Shown: positions 272-48,821 of the stretch, in pieces
Layout of the letters: each line of letters begins with the position of its first letter
Numbering within the stretch: position 1 is the first letter of the stretch
From: Pedobacter sp.
Lineage (GTDB): Bacteria; Bacteroidota; Bacteroidia; Sphingobacteriales; Sphingobacteriaceae
Direction: 5' to 3'
DNA length: 64,000 bases
NCBI GenBank assembly: GCA_004211595.1
Contig: SEDO01000005.1
Coordinates: forward strand, 1-64,000
Translations under genes and position numbers: made by a program
Notes under the pieces: model-generated
Databases searched by the model: none
The model's input: the letters and a program-made list of their open reading frames with translations, nothing else
What the model was told of the DNA's origin: nothing

Positions 272-501
272 TTCGGAACACATTCGAGTTATCTTCGGAA
301 CATATTATAGTTAACTTATAGCTAATAACCGAAAGAATTCGGGTGAGCTTCGAGTGTTGTTCGGGTGAGCTTCGGGAGTTGTTCGGAAAGTGTTCGGGTG
401 TTGTTCGGAAAGTGTTCGAGTGTTGTTCGGAAAAATAGGGGGTTTGTTCGGAAAGTGTTCGGAAAGTATTCGGAAAGATGTAGAAGCGCTCTCGAATTTG
501 G
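272..501. repeat. Degenerate 11-bp tandem repeat array, unit TTCGGAAAGTG / TTCGGGTGTTG, in the rpsL-histidine kinase intergenic region
   Basis: TTCG begins at 272, 283, 294, 338, 349, 360, 371, 382, 393, 404, 415, 426, 447, 458, 469; spacings are 11 or a multiple of 11 except one 21-bp step (426 to 447). Units at 305 (TTATAGTTAAC) and 316 (TTATAGCTAAT) look like decayed copies in phase. Confidence 0.93.
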
Positions 502-646
502 TATATAGTTAATTATAAGTTAGTAGGTAATTGACTCCTTAGTTAAATAATTCGAGTTTAATTTACCCTTAAGAAAATTCTAAAAAGTTCAAATTTATTT
601 AATAGCTTTATCGTAAGGCAACTGTCTAACCGAATTAAACCCTTAT

Positions 647-2068
647 ATGCGCTCCACGATCCCTTTTAAAAGTCTCACCAGTTTAACCTATATTATAGCA
701 ATATTAGGGTCGATTTTTTTCATCATTACTTTCAACTATTTTGCATTAAAAACCCTCAATGGCGTACGCTCGTTTATAAGTGGAGAATCGCAATTTGCAA
801 AAGGTCAGTTAGAAGCTAGCCGGTACATAATATTATATATTCATTCTGGCCAAGACAAATACTTTGAGTTATACGAAAAAAGCTTACAAGTTCCTATATC
901 GGATAGTTTAGCCCGTATAAACATGGATAATGGAGGACCTGATTCGATTACTACTAGGCTCTTGTTTCAAGGTAAAAATGACGCTCAAGATATTCCAGAA
1001 ATTATCTGGTTATACAAGAATTTTAAAGCCTTTAAACCCTTTCAGAAATCCATTAATATTTGGATTAAAGCCGATTTGAAGATCATGGAGTTGCAGAAGT
1101 TCGCAGATGCGGTATATCCCCTCATTAAATCCAAGCAAATCACTAATGTTCAAAGGCAACTATTTGAAGCTAAAGTGAATGCTATAAGCGAACAATTAGT
1201 TTTGATGGGAAATGACTTTGAAGATACCTTGGGTAATAATATTCGCTTTATAAATTCCTATGCGCTTTGGATAATCAATAGCATTGCCTTACTGATTATA
1301 GCAGGTAATATTTATTATTTTTACAGGCAAATTCATTTACTCTCCGTAATCAAAGAAAAAACCCAAATTCAAAACAAAATACTAAGGCAACTTAATTCAG
1401 AAATGGATTTATTTACTTATAGTGTTTCTCATGATTTAAGATCGCCCATTACCTCCCTGAAAGGCTTGGTGAATTTAGCTCAAGCTGAAAATCAATCTCC
1501 AGAGTTAAATCAGTATTTTCAATTCATGCAGATGACCTTAGATAGGCAAGATTTGTTTATACAAAATATCATCAACCTTACCAAGCACAAACGAACGCAA
1601 AATGAGATTGGGGAAGTTAACCTGGAAGATGTTTTCGATCAAATATTAACCGATATCGGTCATATGGTAGATAAATCCAAAGTAAATATCTATAAGGATT
1701 TAAACGTTAAAAGACTACATACGGATCGTTTTCGTCTTAAAATAATTTTGAATAATTTACTGTCTAATGCCTTTAAATACTCAGACCCAGAAAAACCTAT
1801 CTTAACGATAGGCATTACTTCAGAAAAAGTTGAAAATACTATAAAAATTATGGTTCAAGATAACGGACTGGGCATAAAACCAGAACATCATCATAAAATA
1901 TTTGACATGTTTTATGTCGTGAATCATCAAAGTAAAGGAACCGGCTTAGGATTATATTTAGTTAAAGAAACCATCCAAGCTTTAGGTGGAAGTGTTGAAA
2001 TGAATTCGGAAGTTGGTTTTGGAACTAGCTTTACAATTTATTTACCCATTGTCGAGCAGGGCGAATAA
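647..2068 (+). CDS. Membrane sensor histidine kinase (HisKA/HATPase_c)
   Basis: Two hydrophobic segments, H-box SHDLRSPITSLKGL, N-box LNNLLSNAFKYS, G-boxes DNGLGI and GTGLGLYLVK. Confidence 0.93.
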   Translation: MRSTIPFKSLTSLTYIIAILGSIFFIITFNYFALKTLNGVRSFISGESQFAKGQLEASRYIILYIHSGQDKYFELYEKSLQVPISDSLARINMDNGGPDSITTRLLFQGKNDAQDIPEIIWLYKNFKAFKPFQKSINIWIKADLKIMELQKFADAVYPLIKSKQITNVQRQLFEAKVNAISEQLVLMGNDFEDTLGNNIRFINSYALWIINSIALLIIAGNIYYFYRQIHLLSVIKEKTQIQNKILRQLNSEMDLFTYSVSHDLRSPITSLKGLVNLAQAENQSPELNQYFQFMQMTLDRQDLFIQNIINLTKHKRTQNEIGEVNLEDVFDQILTDIGHMVDKSKVNIYKDLNVKRLHTDRFRLKIILNNLLSNAFKYSDPEKPILTIGITSEKVENTIKIMVQDNGLGIKPEHHHKIFDMFYVVNHQSKGTGLGLYLVKETIQALGGSVEMNSEVGFGTSFTIYLPIVEQGE

Positions 2069-34855: not shown

Positions 34856-37696
34856 TTATTTCATTTCTTTTTGTAAAAATTTACCAGTTAAACTCTTAGG
34901 ATGACGAATTAAATCTTCAGGCACACCCTCAAATAAAATTTTACCCCCACCAGCACCACCTTCTTCTCCTAAATCAATAACCCAATCAGCTACCTTCACC
35001 ACATCCAAATTATGTTCAATGACTAATACGGTATTACCTCTTTCTACCAATTCATTTAAAACCCCCATGAGCACCCTAATATCCTCAAAATGCAACCCTG
35101 TAGTAGGCTCATCTAAAATGTAAAAAGTTTTCCCCGTATCTTTTTTGGCAAGTTCTGTGGCTAATTTCACACGTTGCGCTTCCCCACCAGACAAAGTAGT
35201 TGAAGACTGACCTAACCGAATATAACCTAAACCTACATCATTTAAAGTTTTGATTTTGCGATAAATCGCTGGAATATGCTCAAAAAATTCACAGGCATCA
35301 GCAATGCTCATATCTAAAACATCACTGATGGATTTACCTTTATATCTTACTTCTAAAGTTTCTCGATTATATCTTTTTCCCCCACAAGATTCACAAGGCA
35401 CAGCTACATCAGGCAAAAAATTCATTTCAATAATTTTCATTCCACCACCTAAACAAGTTTCACATCTCCCACCTTTCACATTGAATGAAAAACGCCCTGG
35501 CTTATAGCCTCTAATTTTAGATTCAGGCAATTGCACATATAAATTTCTAATATCAGAGAAAACTCCTGTATAAGTACTTGGATTAGATCTTGGGCTTCTA
35601 CCAATCGGCGCTTGATCAATTTCAATTACTTTATCAATCTCATTTAAATGCTCAATCTTTTTATAGGGAAGAGGTTCTTTTTTAGCCCTAAAGAAATGCC
35701 TATTTAAAATAGGATATAAGGTATTCGTAATTAAACTAGATTTACCACTTCCTGAAACCCCTGTAACGGCAATTAATTTACCCAATGGAAAAGACACACT
35801 TATATTTTTTAAATTATGTCCTGTAGCGCCTACCAATTGAATAGATTTTCCATTTCCTACCCGACGTAATTCCGGAACTGCTATTTCCTTCTTACCATTT
35901 AAATAAGCGGCCGTTAATGTATTAGCTTTTAAAATAGCTTGAGGCTTACCTTGAGCTACAATTTCACCCCCATGTTCACCAGCAGCCGGACCCATATCTA
36001 TTACATAATCAGCTTCTAGAATCATATCCTTATCATGTTCCACTACTAAGACGGTATTTCCTAAATCCCTCAAGTTTTTTAAGGCTCCTATCAGGCGCTC
36101 ATTATCTCGTTGATGTAATCCAATGCTTGGTTCATCTAAAATATACATCACATTCATCAACTGTGAGCCAATTTGAGTAGCCAATCGAATACGTTGAGCC
36201 TCCCCTCCCGAAAGCGTACGTGCACTACGGTCCATGCTGAGGTAGTTTAAACCTACATCACTTAAAAACCCAATTCTAGCTTTTATTTCCTTGATTACTT
36301 CTCGGCCAATTATTTGTTGGCGCTCACTTAATCTAGATGCTAAACCTTCAAACCAATCTCGCAATGTTTGGATATCTAATTTGGCTAACTCCGAAATATT
36401 TTTTCCATCAATTTTAAAATGTAAACTTTCTTTTTTTAAGCGGGCCCCTTCACAAACCGGACAAACCTGAAGCTTTCTAAAAGACTCCATTTCTAAAGCA
36501 GCCGTTTCAGATTTCTTCTCCTCTTGTTCTTCCAACAACTTAATAATACCATCGAAACTTACATGGTAATTTTGAACATTCCACTTATTATATTCCACGG
36601 CTACCGAAAGTAAGTCTGGACAACCATTTAAAATATAATCTAATTGTTGTTCAGTTAACTTCTCAATGGGCGTGGACAAGGAAAAATTATATTTTTTGGC
36701 CAATGCTTTTAATACCTGAAATACCCATACGTCCCGATATTCTCCAATAGGAGCCAATCCTCCATTTAAAATACTTAATTTAGAATTAGGTATCATGGTT
36801 TCACGATCAATGACAAAAACATATCCTAAGCCATCGCAATTTTCACAGGCTCCATAAGGGGAATTAAAAGAAAAACTATTGGGTTGAGGCTCATCATACG
36901 AAATGCCTGAAGTTGGGCACATTAAATATTTGGAGTAATGAGCTACCTGATTATCTTTATCGACAATTTTTAATACTCCTTTACCCATTTTAAGGGCAGT
37001 TTGTAAGGAATCTAAAAGTCGTTTATGGTCATCTCTAGATATTAATAATCGATCGATTACCACTTCAATATCGTGGATTTTATATCTATCCACTTGCATT
37101 TTAGGGCTTAAATCTAAAATCTCTCCGTCTACCCTTACTTTAACGTACCCCTGCTTACGAACTTGTTCAAACAATTCCCGATAATGACCCTTTCTACCTT
37201 TAACCACCGGAGCTAGAAGATTGATAGGTTTGCCTTCAAATTTTTGATAAATGTTTTCAATTATTTGATCTTCTGCCATTCTTTCCATCCGCTCCCCTGT
37301 TACATAGGAAAAAGCCTCCCCTACACGGGCAAATAGCAAACGCATAAAATCATATATTTCAGTAATCGTACCAACGGTAGACCGGGGATTTTTACTAGTA
37401 GTTTTTTGTTCTATGGCAATGACAGGACTTAATCCTGAAACCTGATCCACATCTGGTCTTTCCATACCTCCCATAAATTGACGGGAATAGGCCGAAAAAG
37501 TTTCCATGTAACGGCGTTGCCCTTCAGCATATATGGTATCAAAAGCTAATGAAGATTTACCACTTCCACTTAAACCAGTGATGACAACTAATTCATTTCT
37601 AGGAAAACTAACATCAACATTTTTTAAATTATGAACCCTCGCACCAAAAACTTCAACCTCACTTTGTTCCCCTAAATCCACATGCTTTTCAGCCAT
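34856..37696 (-). CDS. uvrA: Excinuclease ABC subunit A
   Basis: VITGLSGSGKSSLAFDTIYAEGQRRYMETFSAYSRQF, VTGVSGSGKSSLI, CETCLGGGMKIIEMNFLPDV, ILDEPTTGLHFEDI. Start at 37696 preferred. Confidence 0.97.
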   Translation of the reverse strand: MAEKHVDLGEQSEVEVFGARVHNLKNVDVSFPRNELVVITGLSGSGKSSLAFDTIYAEGQRRYMETFSAYSRQFMGGMERPDVDQVSGLSPVIAIEQKTTSKNPRSTVGTITEIYDFMRLLFARVGEAFSYVTGERMERMAEDQIIENIYQKFEGKPINLLAPVVKGRKGHYRELFEQVRKQGYVKVRVDGEILDLSPKMQVDRYKIHDIEVVIDRLLISRDDHKRLLDSLQTALKMGKGVLKIVDKDNQVAHYSKYLMCPTSGISYDEPQPNSFSFNSPYGACENCDGLGYVFVIDRETMIPNSKLSILNGGLAPIGEYRDVWVFQVLKALAKKYNFSLSTPIEKLTEQQLDYILNGCPDLLSVAVEYNKWNVQNYHVSFDGIIKLLEEQEEKKSETAALEMESFRKLQVCPVCEGARLKKESLHFKIDGKNISELAKLDIQTLRDWFEGLASRLSERQQIIGREVIKEIKARIGFLSDVGLNYLSMDRSARTLSGGEAQRIRLATQIGSQLMNVMYILDEPSIGLHQRDNERLIGALKNLRDLGNTVLVVEHDKDMILEADYVIDMGPAAGEHGGEIVAQGKPQAILKANTLTAAYLNGKKEIAVPELRRVGNGKSIQLVGATGHNLKNISVSFPLGKLIAVTGVSGSGKSSLITNTLYPILNRHFFRAKKEPLPYKKIEHLNEIDKVIEIDQAPIGRSPRSNPSTYTGVFSDIRNLYVQLPESKIRGYKPGRFSFNVKGGRCETCLGGGMKIIEMNFLPDVAVPCESCGGKRYNRETLEVRYKGKSISDVLDMSIADACEFFEHIPAIYRKIKTLNDVGLGYIRLGQSSTTLSGGEAQRVKLATELAKKDTGKTFYILDEPTTGLHFEDIRVLMGVLNELVERGNTVLVIEHNLDVVKVADWVIDLGEEGGAGGGKILFEGVPEDLIRHPKSLTGKFLQKEMK

Positions 37697-42141: not shown

Positions 42142-43425
42142 ATGATAAAGAAAAATCAAAGGAACAGTCGGGATGACAAGTCCGGCTCGGGTAACGGCAG
42201 AACAGGAAAAAGAACGAGCCAAAATAGTAACTTCAGAGATAAAACTACAGACAAGAGAGAACGTTCATCTGAAGGCAATAAAGAATACAAAAATAGGGAT
42301 ACAGAAAAAGAAGGCAGAAAGCCTTTCACGGATTCTAGACCCTTCCGCAAAAGAGAAAGTCCTTCTTATTCCAGACAAGGTCAATCTGACTCCAAAAACT
42401 CCTTTAAAGAAAATAGTCGCCGACCATTCGGAGACGACAAACGTAAATCGTTTAATGATGACAAAAGAAAGTCATTCGGAGAGGATAAGAGAAAGTCATT
42501 CGGGGATGATACGCGAAAACCCTTTAATTCTGATAATCGTAGAGAAAGTGGTTTTGAGAAGCGTAGAGAAGGTGGATTCGAAAAACGTAGAGAAGGTGGT
42601 TTTGAGAAACGTCCAGGCTTCAAAGGTAGAAACTTTAGTGATAAGGCAAGCAGCGCTGAAAAATCTGCACCTATTTTAAGATCTCGTAAAAAGGAAGTTG
42701 AAAACGATGACTTAATTCGTTTAAATCGGTATATCGCCAATTCTGGCATTTGTTCTCGTAGAAAAGCAGATGAGCTGATTGCGGCAGGTGTAATCTCCGT
42801 AAATCATGTTATTATCTCAGAATTAGGCCATAAAGTAAATCCATTCAAAGATGAAATCAGATACAATGGAGAACTTTTAAAAAGAGAAAAAAAGGTTTAT
42901 GTATTATTAAACAAACCTAAAGACTATATCACCACGACAGATGATCCGCAAGAAAGAAAAACAGTCATGCAACTCGTAGAAAAGGCCAGTCGTGAAAGAA
43001 TTTATCCAGTAGGTCGTTTAGATAGAAATACTACCGGATTATTACTAATGACGAATGATGGCGATTTGGCGGATAAATTATCCCACCCTAAAAACGGGAT
43101 TACTAAAATATACCATGTAGAATTAGATAAAAACTTAAGCCAAGGCGATTTTAATAAAATTGAATTTGGGTTAGAACTTGAAGACGGAATTATTAAGCCT
43201 GATAACATACAATACGTTACAGGTGCTAGCAAGAAAGAAATCGGCATCCAGATTCACAGTGGTAAAAATCGTATTGTTAGAAGAATTTTTGAACACTTAG
43301 GGTATGATGTAGTAAAACTGGATCGTGTGGTGTATGGGAATTTAACAAAAAAAGATTTGCCAAGAGGTCGTTGGAGATATTTGGACGAAAAGGAACTAAT
43401 TCAAATCAAACATCTTATAAAATAG
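42142..43425 (+). CDS. rRNA pseudouridine synthase (RsuA/RluB family) with long basic repetitive N-terminal extension
   Basis: S4 domain RLNRYIANSGICSRRKADELIAAGVISVN; catalytic GRLDRNTTGLLLMTNDGDLA; about 195-residue K/R/D/S/G-rich N-terminus. Confidence 0.94.
   Translation: MIKKNQRNSRDDKSGSGNGRTGKRTSQNSNFRDKTTDKRERSSEGNKEYKNRDTEKEGRKPFTDSRPFRKRESPSYSRQGQSDSKNSFKENSRRPFGDDKRKSFNDDKRKSFGEDKRKSFGDDTRKPFNSDNRRESGFEKRREGGFEKRREGGFEKRPGFKGRNFSDKASSAEKSAPILRSRKKEVENDDLIRLNRYIANSGICSRRKADELIAAGVISVNHVIISELGHKVNPFKDEIRYNGELLKREKKVYVLLNKPKDYITTTDDPQERKTVMQLVEKASRERIYPVGRLDRNTTGLLLMTNDGDLADKLSHPKNGITKIYHVELDKNLSQGDFNKIEFGLELEDGIIKPDNIQYVTGASKKEIGIQIHSGKNRIVRRIFEHLGYDVVKLDRVVYGNLTKKDLPRGRWRYLDEKELIQIKHLIK
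42429..42612 (+). repeat. In-frame 24-bp repeats encoding DDKRKSFG-like and GFEKRREG octapeptides
   Basis: Translation DDKRKSFN DDKRKSFG EDKRKSFG DDTRKPFN SDNRRES GFEKRREG GFEKRREG GFEKR. Confidence 0.88.
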
Positions 43426-46616: not shown

Positions 46617-48821
46617 GTGTTAAAAACTCGTTTTTTATTAATTTTAATATGCCTTCCAGTCTTCCTATTTGGGCAGGCCACTACGCAGATTCAATTAACA
46701 GAATCTGAAAATCTTGAAGTAGATGTTGCGAAAGGTTTATCGCGAGTTAAAAAGCCTGTTTTCGTACATCAAGGGGCCATCATGACCTGTGATAGTGCTC
46801 ATTATTGGAAAGAGAAAAATTACTTTGAAGCCTTTGGGAATGTGCGTATTAATCAAGATACCATCAACATAAGTTCAGATTTATTGAATTATAATGGGAA
46901 TACGAAAGATGCACATCTCATCCGAAATGTACGCATGTCTGATCCTTCTAGTATACTCACCACTAATATTTTTTATTATAATACCGCTACTCGTATTGGA
47001 CGCTACCTTACCAATGGTAAAATTCAAAATAAAGAAGCCACTGTAACAAGTAAAAGAGGCTATTATTTTGCCAGTTCAAATGATGCCTATTTTAGAGAAA
47101 ACGTGGTAGTAGTAACTAACCAAGTTACCGTTAAATCAGATACATTGCGCTATAACACTAATACCAACGAAACCTATTTCTATGGCCCCACCGATTTATT
47201 TGGTAAAACGGATACCCTTTATACCGAAAACGGTCAATACAATACCAAAACCCAACGCTTTTTTGCAGGGAAAAATAATCTCTATACGCAAAATACCAAA
47301 ACCCTTCGGGGCGATAGCTTATATTATGACGGAATAAAAGGTTACGGCAAAGCGGTTCGAAACATTGTCTTCACGGATTCCCAAGATCAATTAGAACTCC
47401 ATGGGCAATTAGGGGAATACTTTAAAGAGAGTGAGAAAGTCAGGGTCACCGATAGAGCCTATGTTGCCCTATCCACCCAAGATTCTATTTCAGTAAATGG
47501 GAAAAAAGTAGCAGATACCTTATGGCTAGGCGCTAAAGTGTTGGAAGCTGAAATGATGCTCCAGTCGAAGCTAAAATTAGTGGCCAAACCTGTAGTGATT
47601 GCCGATGAGGAAATAGGAAAAGATCCCGATCCGGTTCCATTACCTCCACTCCCGGGCTCCATTCCAAAAGTTTCAGACAGTGTGGCTATTCAAAAAAATA
47701 AAATAGCCGACAGCTTAAATATTAAAGGTTTGAGTCCGGTAGATAGTTTAAAACTTTTAAATCTTAAATTACCGGATAGCCTTCATCTACTTACTCAAAG
47801 CACACTCGACAGCTTAAAACAATGGAAGTTAAAACTTCCTGATAGTGTAAAAAACTTGACCCAAGCCAAACTGGATGTACTTAAACAATTCAATAAGTTT
47901 CCATTAGACACCAATAAAGTGATTCAGGCAAATCCCGCAGATAGTTTAATTTCTGTGGTTACCAAAACAGTGGATTCCACAACTAAACTTACCAGCCCTA
48001 AAATTCAGGAGGTCATAGATCCCAAAGTAATAAACATACCTAAAGACAGCCTAAAAGCGGCTCCAGTAGACACCGTAAAAACGAGGATAATCCGGGCGTA
48101 CGAAGGCACTAAAATCTTTAAATCTAATCTTCAGGCTAAAGCAGATTCACTCTTCTTTGCAGCTGCTGACTCTACCTTGAGGCTCTATCGAGAACCCATC
48201 ATTTGGTCGGATAGTACGCAGCTATATGGGGACACGATACATGTACAAATTAGGGGCAAAAAAATTGATAATGCCCAGCTATTTCAAAATGCTTTTATTG
48301 CTTCCCAACAAACTGATACAGCCAAGTTTAATCAAATTAAGGGGTCAGTTATAACTGCCTTTTTCGAGGAAGGTGAAATTCGAGATATGTATGTGGATGG
48401 GAATTCAGAATCAGTGGTGTATGAAAAAAATGAGAAACAGCAATATAGTTCTAATCAAACGGTATCTGCTCGTATTAGATTATTATTTAAAAATAAAGAG
48501 CTTCACGAAATCCATGCCATTAAAGTGATGGCAGGAGATTTTACCACTGCTGAAGCAGGAGCTAGTAATATTATACTTACGGATTTTATTTGGAAACCCG
48601 AACTCAGGCCACTGGATAAAAAAGAAATAACCGGCGTGATTAAACCAGCACAAATACCTGTTAAGGGCAAAGCCTCCACAGCAACTAAAACCCCAACTAA
48701 AGCACCAGTAAAGACACCTGTTAAAACTACGGCGAAACCAGATACAAAACCAACAGCTAAACCAGTCACAAAACCGGAAGCTAAGCCGGAAGCAAAACCG
48801 GCAGCTAAACCAGCAGCTTAA
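46617..48821 (+). CDS. OstA-like/LPS-assembly (LptA/LptD N-terminal-like) protein with low-complexity insert and KP-rich tail
   Basis: GAIMTCDSAHYWKEKNYFEAFGNVRINQDTINISSDLLNYNGNTKDAHLIRNV... repeated OstA modules; GTG start. Confidence 0.87.
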   Translation: MLKTRFLLILICLPVFLFGQATTQIQLTESENLEVDVAKGLSRVKKPVFVHQGAIMTCDSAHYWKEKNYFEAFGNVRINQDTINISSDLLNYNGNTKDAHLIRNVRMSDPSSILTTNIFYYNTATRIGRYLTNGKIQNKEATVTSKRGYYFASSNDAYFRENVVVVTNQVTVKSDTLRYNTNTNETYFYGPTDLFGKTDTLYTENGQYNTKTQRFFAGKNNLYTQNTKTLRGDSLYYDGIKGYGKAVRNIVFTDSQDQLELHGQLGEYFKESEKVRVTDRAYVALSTQDSISVNGKKVADTLWLGAKVLEAEMMLQSKLKLVAKPVVIADEEIGKDPDPVPLPPLPGSIPKVSDSVAIQKNKIADSLNIKGLSPVDSLKLLNLKLPDSLHLLTQSTLDSLKQWKLKLPDSVKNLTQAKLDVLKQFNKFPLDTNKVIQANPADSLISVVTKTVDSTTKLTSPKIQEVIDPKVINIPKDSLKAAPVDTVKTRIIRAYEGTKIFKSNLQAKADSLFFAAADSTLRLYREPIIWSDSTQLYGDTIHVQIRGKKIDNAQLFQNAFIASQQTDTAKFNQIKGSVITAFFEEGEIRDMYVDGNSESVVYEKNEKQQYSSNQTVSARIRLLFKNKELHEIHAIKVMAGDFTTAEAGASNIILTDFIWKPELRPLDKKEITGVIKPAQIPVKGKASTATKTPTKAPVKTPVKTTAKPDTKPTAKPVTKPEAKPEAKPAAKPAA

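Follow-up and report, generated by a model that had tools for sequence, protein, structure and literature searches.

An 11-bp phased TTCG array upstream of rpsL in Pedobacter belongs to a dispersed element with relatives upstream of DUF6266 genes

The window analysed here is a stretch of 64,000 nucleotides from Pedobacter sp., and its first part carries the 5' end of rpsL, an array of 11-bp TTCG units, and a divergent sensor histidine kinase gene (Table 1). The array lies between the two genes, 168 bp upstream of the rpsL ATG (position 104, minus strand). The initial annotation had described 15 TTCG cores at 11-bp spacing with a single 21-bp step, and this layout is borne out. The cores start at 272, 283, 294, 338, 349, 360, 371, 382, 393, 404, 415, 426, 447, 458, and 469, with steps of 11, 11, 44, eight times 11, 21, 11, and 11, and the array holds 12 lag-11 pairs against about 0.05 expected (mean 0.052, maximum 2, in 2000 dinucleotide-preserving shuffles). 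Its lag-11 peak (z 7.3) is the sole strong one within the 64-kb window, where the next reaches 3.5, and in the 464-kb sample including the window, on which the array density figure is based, there is one further array, a TGTGGTTCAAC copy. The helical phasing and the non-coding nature of the array, both claimed earlier, hold as well. The position given to it, 272–501, is right, but the element runs past 501, to about 535. The units at 305 and 316 do keep the phase, as had been noted, but they are not decayed, since TTATAGTTAAC recurs in related copies elsewhere.

Table 1. Features of the array and its neighbourhood in the window.
Feature	Position	Strand	Remark
rpsL 5' end, cut by the contig end	1..104	-	GCAAGAAATGCCAACCATTCAACA..., conserved in 60/61 same-genus genomes
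Main arm of the element, 11-bp TTCG units and in-phase non-TTCG units	272..479	+	15 cores, 12 lag-11 pairs
Units in phase, of words other than TTCG: TTATAGTTAAC, TTATAGCTAAT, AACCGAAAGAA	305..337	+	keep register between 294 and 338
21-bp step TTCGGAAAAATAGGGGGTTTG	426..446	+	landmark common to four copies
Dyad region with the final TTCG unit and, after it, the first inverted core (CGAA at 493)	469..496	.	register alignment
Right degenerate arm CGAATTTGGTA TATAGTTAATT ATAAGTTAGTA GGTAATTGACT	493..535	-	exact right end uncertain
Divergent sensor histidine kinase (HisKA + HATPase_c)	647..2068	+	

Bases 1–107 of the window, which hold the rpsL 5' end, are found a second time, identical at 100%, at C29:25512-25618 in this assembly, and because of these 107 identical bases the contigs C68 and C29 probably join there. 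Tandem repeats with 24-bp and 12/24-bp units, multiples of 3 and perhaps coding, are present at 42466–42612 and 48735–48818 of the window. The genome G000 is a 2.65 Mb assembly with 100% completeness, and most same-genus genomes have 3.5–6.9 Mb.

The TTCG word family occurs at seven further loci of the source genome, on C4, C21 (twice), C25, C27, C47, and C52. They were found with four-unit and three-unit patterns, for which a reversed control pattern gave 0–1 matches. The window copy and the copies on C25, C47, and C21 (the second copy, C21b) have in common a 21-bp step, TTCGGAAAGaatnGGnGTTTG, just ahead of the dyad. Its versions are TTCGGAAAGAATGCGGCGTTG in C25, TTCGGAAAGAATAGGTGTTTG (twice) in C47, and TTCGGAAAGTTGTGGGCTTTG in C21b, each followed by TTCGGAAAGTG and the dyad, and at the place of the window's dyad region these three copies have TTCGGAAAGnTTCCGAAG. 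Moreover, both the C25 copy, which is linked to a DUF6266 gene, and C21b have TTATAGTTAAC or a near variant in phase, and the right-arm units TATAGTTAATT and ATAAGTTAGTA of the window copy are similar in sequence and register to the corresponding arms of C21b and C25. As these landmarks are shared, the TTCG copies have a common descent and did not arise by independent slippage at each site. Judged by sequence, the window array is one copy of a dispersed homologous element.

Three TTCG elements (C21 ~78890–78936, L012; C27 ~93785–93860, L015; C52 ~36050–36110, L017) have at one end an additional 11-bp array, whose word is GTCCCTATAAG, and in C27 it keeps the same register. The right neighbour of L012 was considered as a distant DUF6266 gene and found no support. 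In G023, three elements that look alike, at the loci L029, L037, and L041, measure ~200 bp each; they are dyads phased at 11 bp that end in TTCG/CGAA and have a TTGGACTCATA word at their centre. When TTCG arrays were compared with DUF6266 presence across the class, five genomes only were positive, and those of G101 and G164 are plain perfect tandem repeats.

A link to the regulation of rpsL or of the kinase had been proposed for the array and is not supported, as 27 of 30 same-genus rpsL regions are without it. A dedicated regulator of these two genes can hardly be credited, although the array stands close upstream of rpsL and the other two genomes with an 11-bp array at rpsL, G023 and G064, offer some support. 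The same element sits at many unrelated sites, and an rpsL-specific regulator was rejected on the orthologous regions that lack the array. Solitary copies, too, sit in intergenic DNA of every orientation. The gaps that hold the 18 solitary copies of the source genome lie between convergent genes in 3 cases, divergent genes in 6, and codirectional genes in 9, which is about the mix expected for random intergenic placement. The solitary copies are thus neither dedicated promoters nor terminators.

What the initial annotation missed altogether is the link of related arrays to DUF6266 (PF19781) genes, along with the dyad structure and the solitary relatives. A DUF6266 gene adjoins the array at 3 of the 18 loci fetched. 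The source genome has five DUF6266 genes above the curated PF19781 cut-off, and four of them have an 11-bp array upstream, with words of the TTCGGAAAGTG type at C25, TTCGGTCGGAT at C68:67590, TTCGGTGAAGA at C31, and TGTGGTTCAAC at C11. Within the genus, DUF6266 was found in 46 of 61 genomes. Among 114 listed DUF6266 genes with both flanks, drawn from the upper end of a ranking by score, a lag-11 z above 4 is reached by 48 upstream and 0 downstream regions. All 48 belong to lead genes (48/98 upstream, 0/98 downstream; Fisher 3e-18), roughly half of the lead genes listed being without an array at this threshold, and none of the 16 listed tandem followers has an upstream array. Upstream regions of other genes, used as controls, reach z>3 in 2 of 80 cases, one of them in the rpsL-array locus of G023. 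These counts have to be read with three points in mind: the genes of the 48 arrays form 37 groups below 60% identity and so are not independent, the lag statistic was picked once the pattern was known (the searches in G206 and for TTACC, described below, came later), and the flank shuffles used dinucleotide blocks, which are rougher than the dinucleotide-preserving shuffles of the window array. Of the lags tested, 7–30, those enriched upstream of DUF6266 are 11, 22, and weakly 10, and no other.

The linked words vary widely among loci, while the 11-bp period is constant and the arms turn over at a dyad. In several families the linked copy stands 56–326 bp upstream of the DUF6266 gene. An array also precedes DUF6266 in another genus of the same family (L232, z 11.8) and in another family (L235, z 5.4). 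The neighbours of DUF6266 loci, read by eye, vary and none is constant. A small helix-turn-helix gene lies ahead of some of these loci; that at L100:922-1248 is HTH_17, and genes like it, judged by eye, stand upstream of the arrays in L116, L119, L124, L130, and L171. Before some DUF6266 genes (L128, L127, L129; e.g., TTTAGCTCAA) 10-bp phased repeats replace the 11-bp ones, and a lag-10 z above 3 occurs upstream of 14 of the 114 listed genes and downstream of 0. In three other families (L228–L230), proteins that match the Pfam model of DUF6266 with E below 1e-96 have only two or three 11-bp units ahead (AAGTCCGTGTC). In addition, the 150 bp ahead of the gene contain the palindrome ACCGGT, often as TACCGGTA, in 18 of 98 lead genes, versus 2 of 98 downstream, mostly at one distance, about -53 to -62 from the DUF6266 ATG.

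Several linked words have solitary relatives of their own. The TGTGGTTCAAC word, which is unrelated to TTCG, has seven copies in the whole genome, one linked (the C11 DUF6266) and six solitary, and the TTCGGTCGGAT word of this genome is found once beside a DUF6266 gene and five times alone. The only DUF6266 gene detected in G206, which is of another genus, has the word CTAACTATATG; 1+8 loci of this word were present in G206, as predicted before the search, and 0 loci in three other genomes searched. Together with TTCGG, four word families thus comprise a linked copy and solitary relatives in the same genome. TTACC arrays behave similarly across the genus, with 0 matches to the control pattern, and they are also present in G009, G059, and G061, where the DUF6266 search found no match; because of these three genomes, solitary copies can outlast the gene. 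Word similarity rises with DUF6266 identity, from 0.38 (<40%) to 0.54 (40–50%) and 0.61 (50–70%), the pairs above 40% being few (40 and 15) and related, and the similarity of downstream DNA is flat at 0.36–0.38 over the same classes. The correlation is absent among DUF6266 pairs below 40% identity and is no stronger for the N-terminal half of the protein than for the C-terminal half. The rise is compatible with a cognate pair of word and protein.

A functionless minisatellite born of slippage would explain tandem 11-mers and a unit number that varies among copies. It is scarcely tenable, however, for an element that has homologous landmarks at several loci and a dyad structure, that retains core and phase although the unit bodies have diverged, and whose counterparts with unrelated words and the same period are concentrated upstream of DUF6266 genes.

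The copies are dyads with one uniform arm and one degenerate arm, the latter keeping core and phase only. Inverted-repeat z exceeds 3 in 31 of 48 DUF6266-linked arrays versus 3 of 48 downstream regions. Of the two arms in the G206 copies, one is almost perfect; the second retains only GTTA (the inverted core TAAC) and an A, at fixed places every 11 bp. Complementarity between arms in G206 is 19.4/33 within a copy versus 19.0 between copies, and no compensatory base changes between the arms were seen in this one family of 8 copies. Since the arms of a copy fit each other no better than those of other copies, it is core and phase that are kept, and not base pairing. Selection on core and spacing instead of unit bodies, as proposed earlier, is upheld, and the kept core and phase would be the trace expected from protein binding once per helical turn. 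Looping assays in E. coli likewise put the helical period of supercoiled DNA in vivo at 11 bp (PMC3922697). Protein binding by the window array, suggested from the start, remains likely, and no named element with this unit was found, in line with the same first reading.

An RNA hairpin element with pairing arms, whether leader, terminator, or sRNA, would account for some copies whose folds are much better than those of shuffles (z -9.0, -5.1, and -4.8). Such an element is nevertheless highly improbable, given a z of -1.4 for the window copy folded as DNA, the G206 arms without compensatory pairing, and the lack of an orientation preference relative to genes; moreover, no Rfam match above the gathering score was found at the arrays. 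It was rejected on Rfam, folds, and compensation. UUCG tetraloop hairpins from paired units were rejected as well: judged by eye, few pairs fit (GGTTTTC-ttcg-GAAAACC) and most do not.

DUF6266 proteins have about 213 amino acids, and the AlphaFold2 model (pLDDT 94) consists of an N-terminal part with three strands and helices and a C-terminal FN3-like domain. Residues 1–65 have a mean charge of +8.2 and the remainder -1.4. The N-terminal part alone has no PDB match and resembles no known DNA-binding fold. A comparison with Pfam transposase and nuclease families gave no match, PF19781 being the only family found; there was no significant match in PHROGs or PADLOC, and no catalytic fold resembles the model. 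DUF6266 was not found in phage records, in 72,556 plasmid records queried with the protein, or at close range on viral contigs, and no paper of the literature searched names it.

Taken together, the arrays and DUF6266 probably represent an undescribed DNA-binding or self-spreading system, and the best reading of the arrays is as phased protein-binding sites, each probably cognate to a DUF6266 protein. The account preferred here, held tentatively and as somewhat short of probable, is that the window array is a solitary scaffold copy, and that DUF6266 reads and assembles on its own word, controls its own gene, and occupies solitary copies in trans. The DNA-binding scaffold would consist of a dyad flanked on either side by short cores (here TTCGG), one to each helical turn. 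A protein could then bind turn after turn along the same DNA face, its orientation reversing from one arm to the other. Each DUF6266 protein would recognise the word of its own array and bind the cores turn by turn; the linked copy would act as the operator of its own DUF6266 gene, and the solitary copies would be the sites occupied in trans. Binding, assembly, and autoregulation by DUF6266, as well as the cause of the dispersal, are what we infer, whereas the phasing, the dyads, the dispersal itself, the gene linkage, and the word-protein correlation are observed. The scaffold reading is supported because arrays are concentrated upstream of lead genes as against downstream regions, followers, and controls. 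It is further favoured by the words with linked and solitary copies, the dyads, the core and phase kept without arm pairing, the rise of word similarity with protein identity, the positive charge of residues 1–65, and the agreement of 11 bp with the helical period in vivo. Against it stand the N-terminal domain unlike any solved DNA-binding fold, the lead genes listed without an array at the threshold, the persistence of TTACC arrays in three genomes with no DUF6266 match, the missing word-protein correlation below 40% identity and its failure to be stronger for the N-terminal half, and the kinship among the genes counted.

The arrays away from DUF6266 and those in genomes without it would also suit a host protein that binds them, with DUF6266 genes merely as frequent clients that have such promoters, and the HTH_17-like gene ahead of the array at some DUF6266 loci would supply a candidate. 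This is rather unlikely, because the words track DUF6266 similarity and nearly all other genes are without arrays. Furthermore, the families of a single genome have different words, and it is hard to see how one host protein would read them all by sequence.

On the other hand, the arrays may be non-autonomous mobile DNA, copied or inserted by DUF6266 itself or by DUF6266 together with a nuclease or integrase of the host, with the solitary copies as the outcome, in the manner of REP/RAYT, a minority possibility that deserves to be kept in sight. Each word has one linked copy and relatives scattered over unrelated intergenic sites, the copies can be aligned over ~110–150 bp and, in one family, stop sharply on the right (CAACCCCCTAG), and the layout mirrors REPIN flavours beside their RAYT (PMC3116915). 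DUF6266, however, has no transposase or nuclease Pfam match, no significant PHROGs or PADLOC match, no likeness to a catalytic fold, and no record in phages or plasmids, and no target-site duplication has been established. A further conjecture, of low probability, is a word-specific self-spreading system of Bacteroidia made up of DUF6266 proteins and their phased dyad arrays, in which each protein would polymerise on its own array and thereby let it be copied into further intergenic positions by a mechanism unlike known transposases.

With the preferred scaffold account, the uncharacterised DUF6266 family gains a first candidate target and many naturally varied pairs of protein and word. If DUF6266 does read a word at each helical turn, it would be a new sequence-specific scaffold with fast-changing specificity; if it also spreads the arrays, these would be a new kind of mobile repeat.

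Among known systems, REP/REPIN with its RAYT (TnpA_REP) is alike in its dispersed intergenic inverted repeats, with a flavour beside its own gene and many solitary relatives (PMC3116915), and a word beside a putative cognate gene with relatives in the same genome is seen here in four word families. The two differ in that no Y1 (HUH) tyrosine transposase gene is adjacent here, the neighbour being PF19781 only, and in that the copies are phased 11-bp arrays of ~110–400 bp whereas REPs are short hairpins; the copy number found per word is ~6–9. In R1-type parC, direct repeats of about one helical turn stand upstream of the gene and are bound cooperatively, with a specificity that varies by family (PMC9426499). 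The direct repeats of ~10–11 bp upstream of the DUF6266 gene resemble this centromere for ParR, but the arrays are chromosomal, dispersed, and dyadic, DUF6266 is not ribbon-helix-helix by Pfam or model, no ParM was seen among the neighbours read by eye, and the system is not plasmid-borne, as DUF6266 is absent from the plasmid records. As far as sequence and model indicate, the array/DUF6266 system would fall outside both REP/RAYT and parC/ParR by the proteins that define them. Phased A-tracts give bacterial genomes a periodicity of ~10–11 bp (PMC3940949, PMC7537859); the helical period is alike, and theirs appears as a weak genome-wide composition signal whereas discrete arrays with sequence-specific cores are present here. 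Minisatellites share the head-to-tail units of fixed length, and the arrays differ from them in their homologous landmarks, their dyads, and their linkage to a gene.
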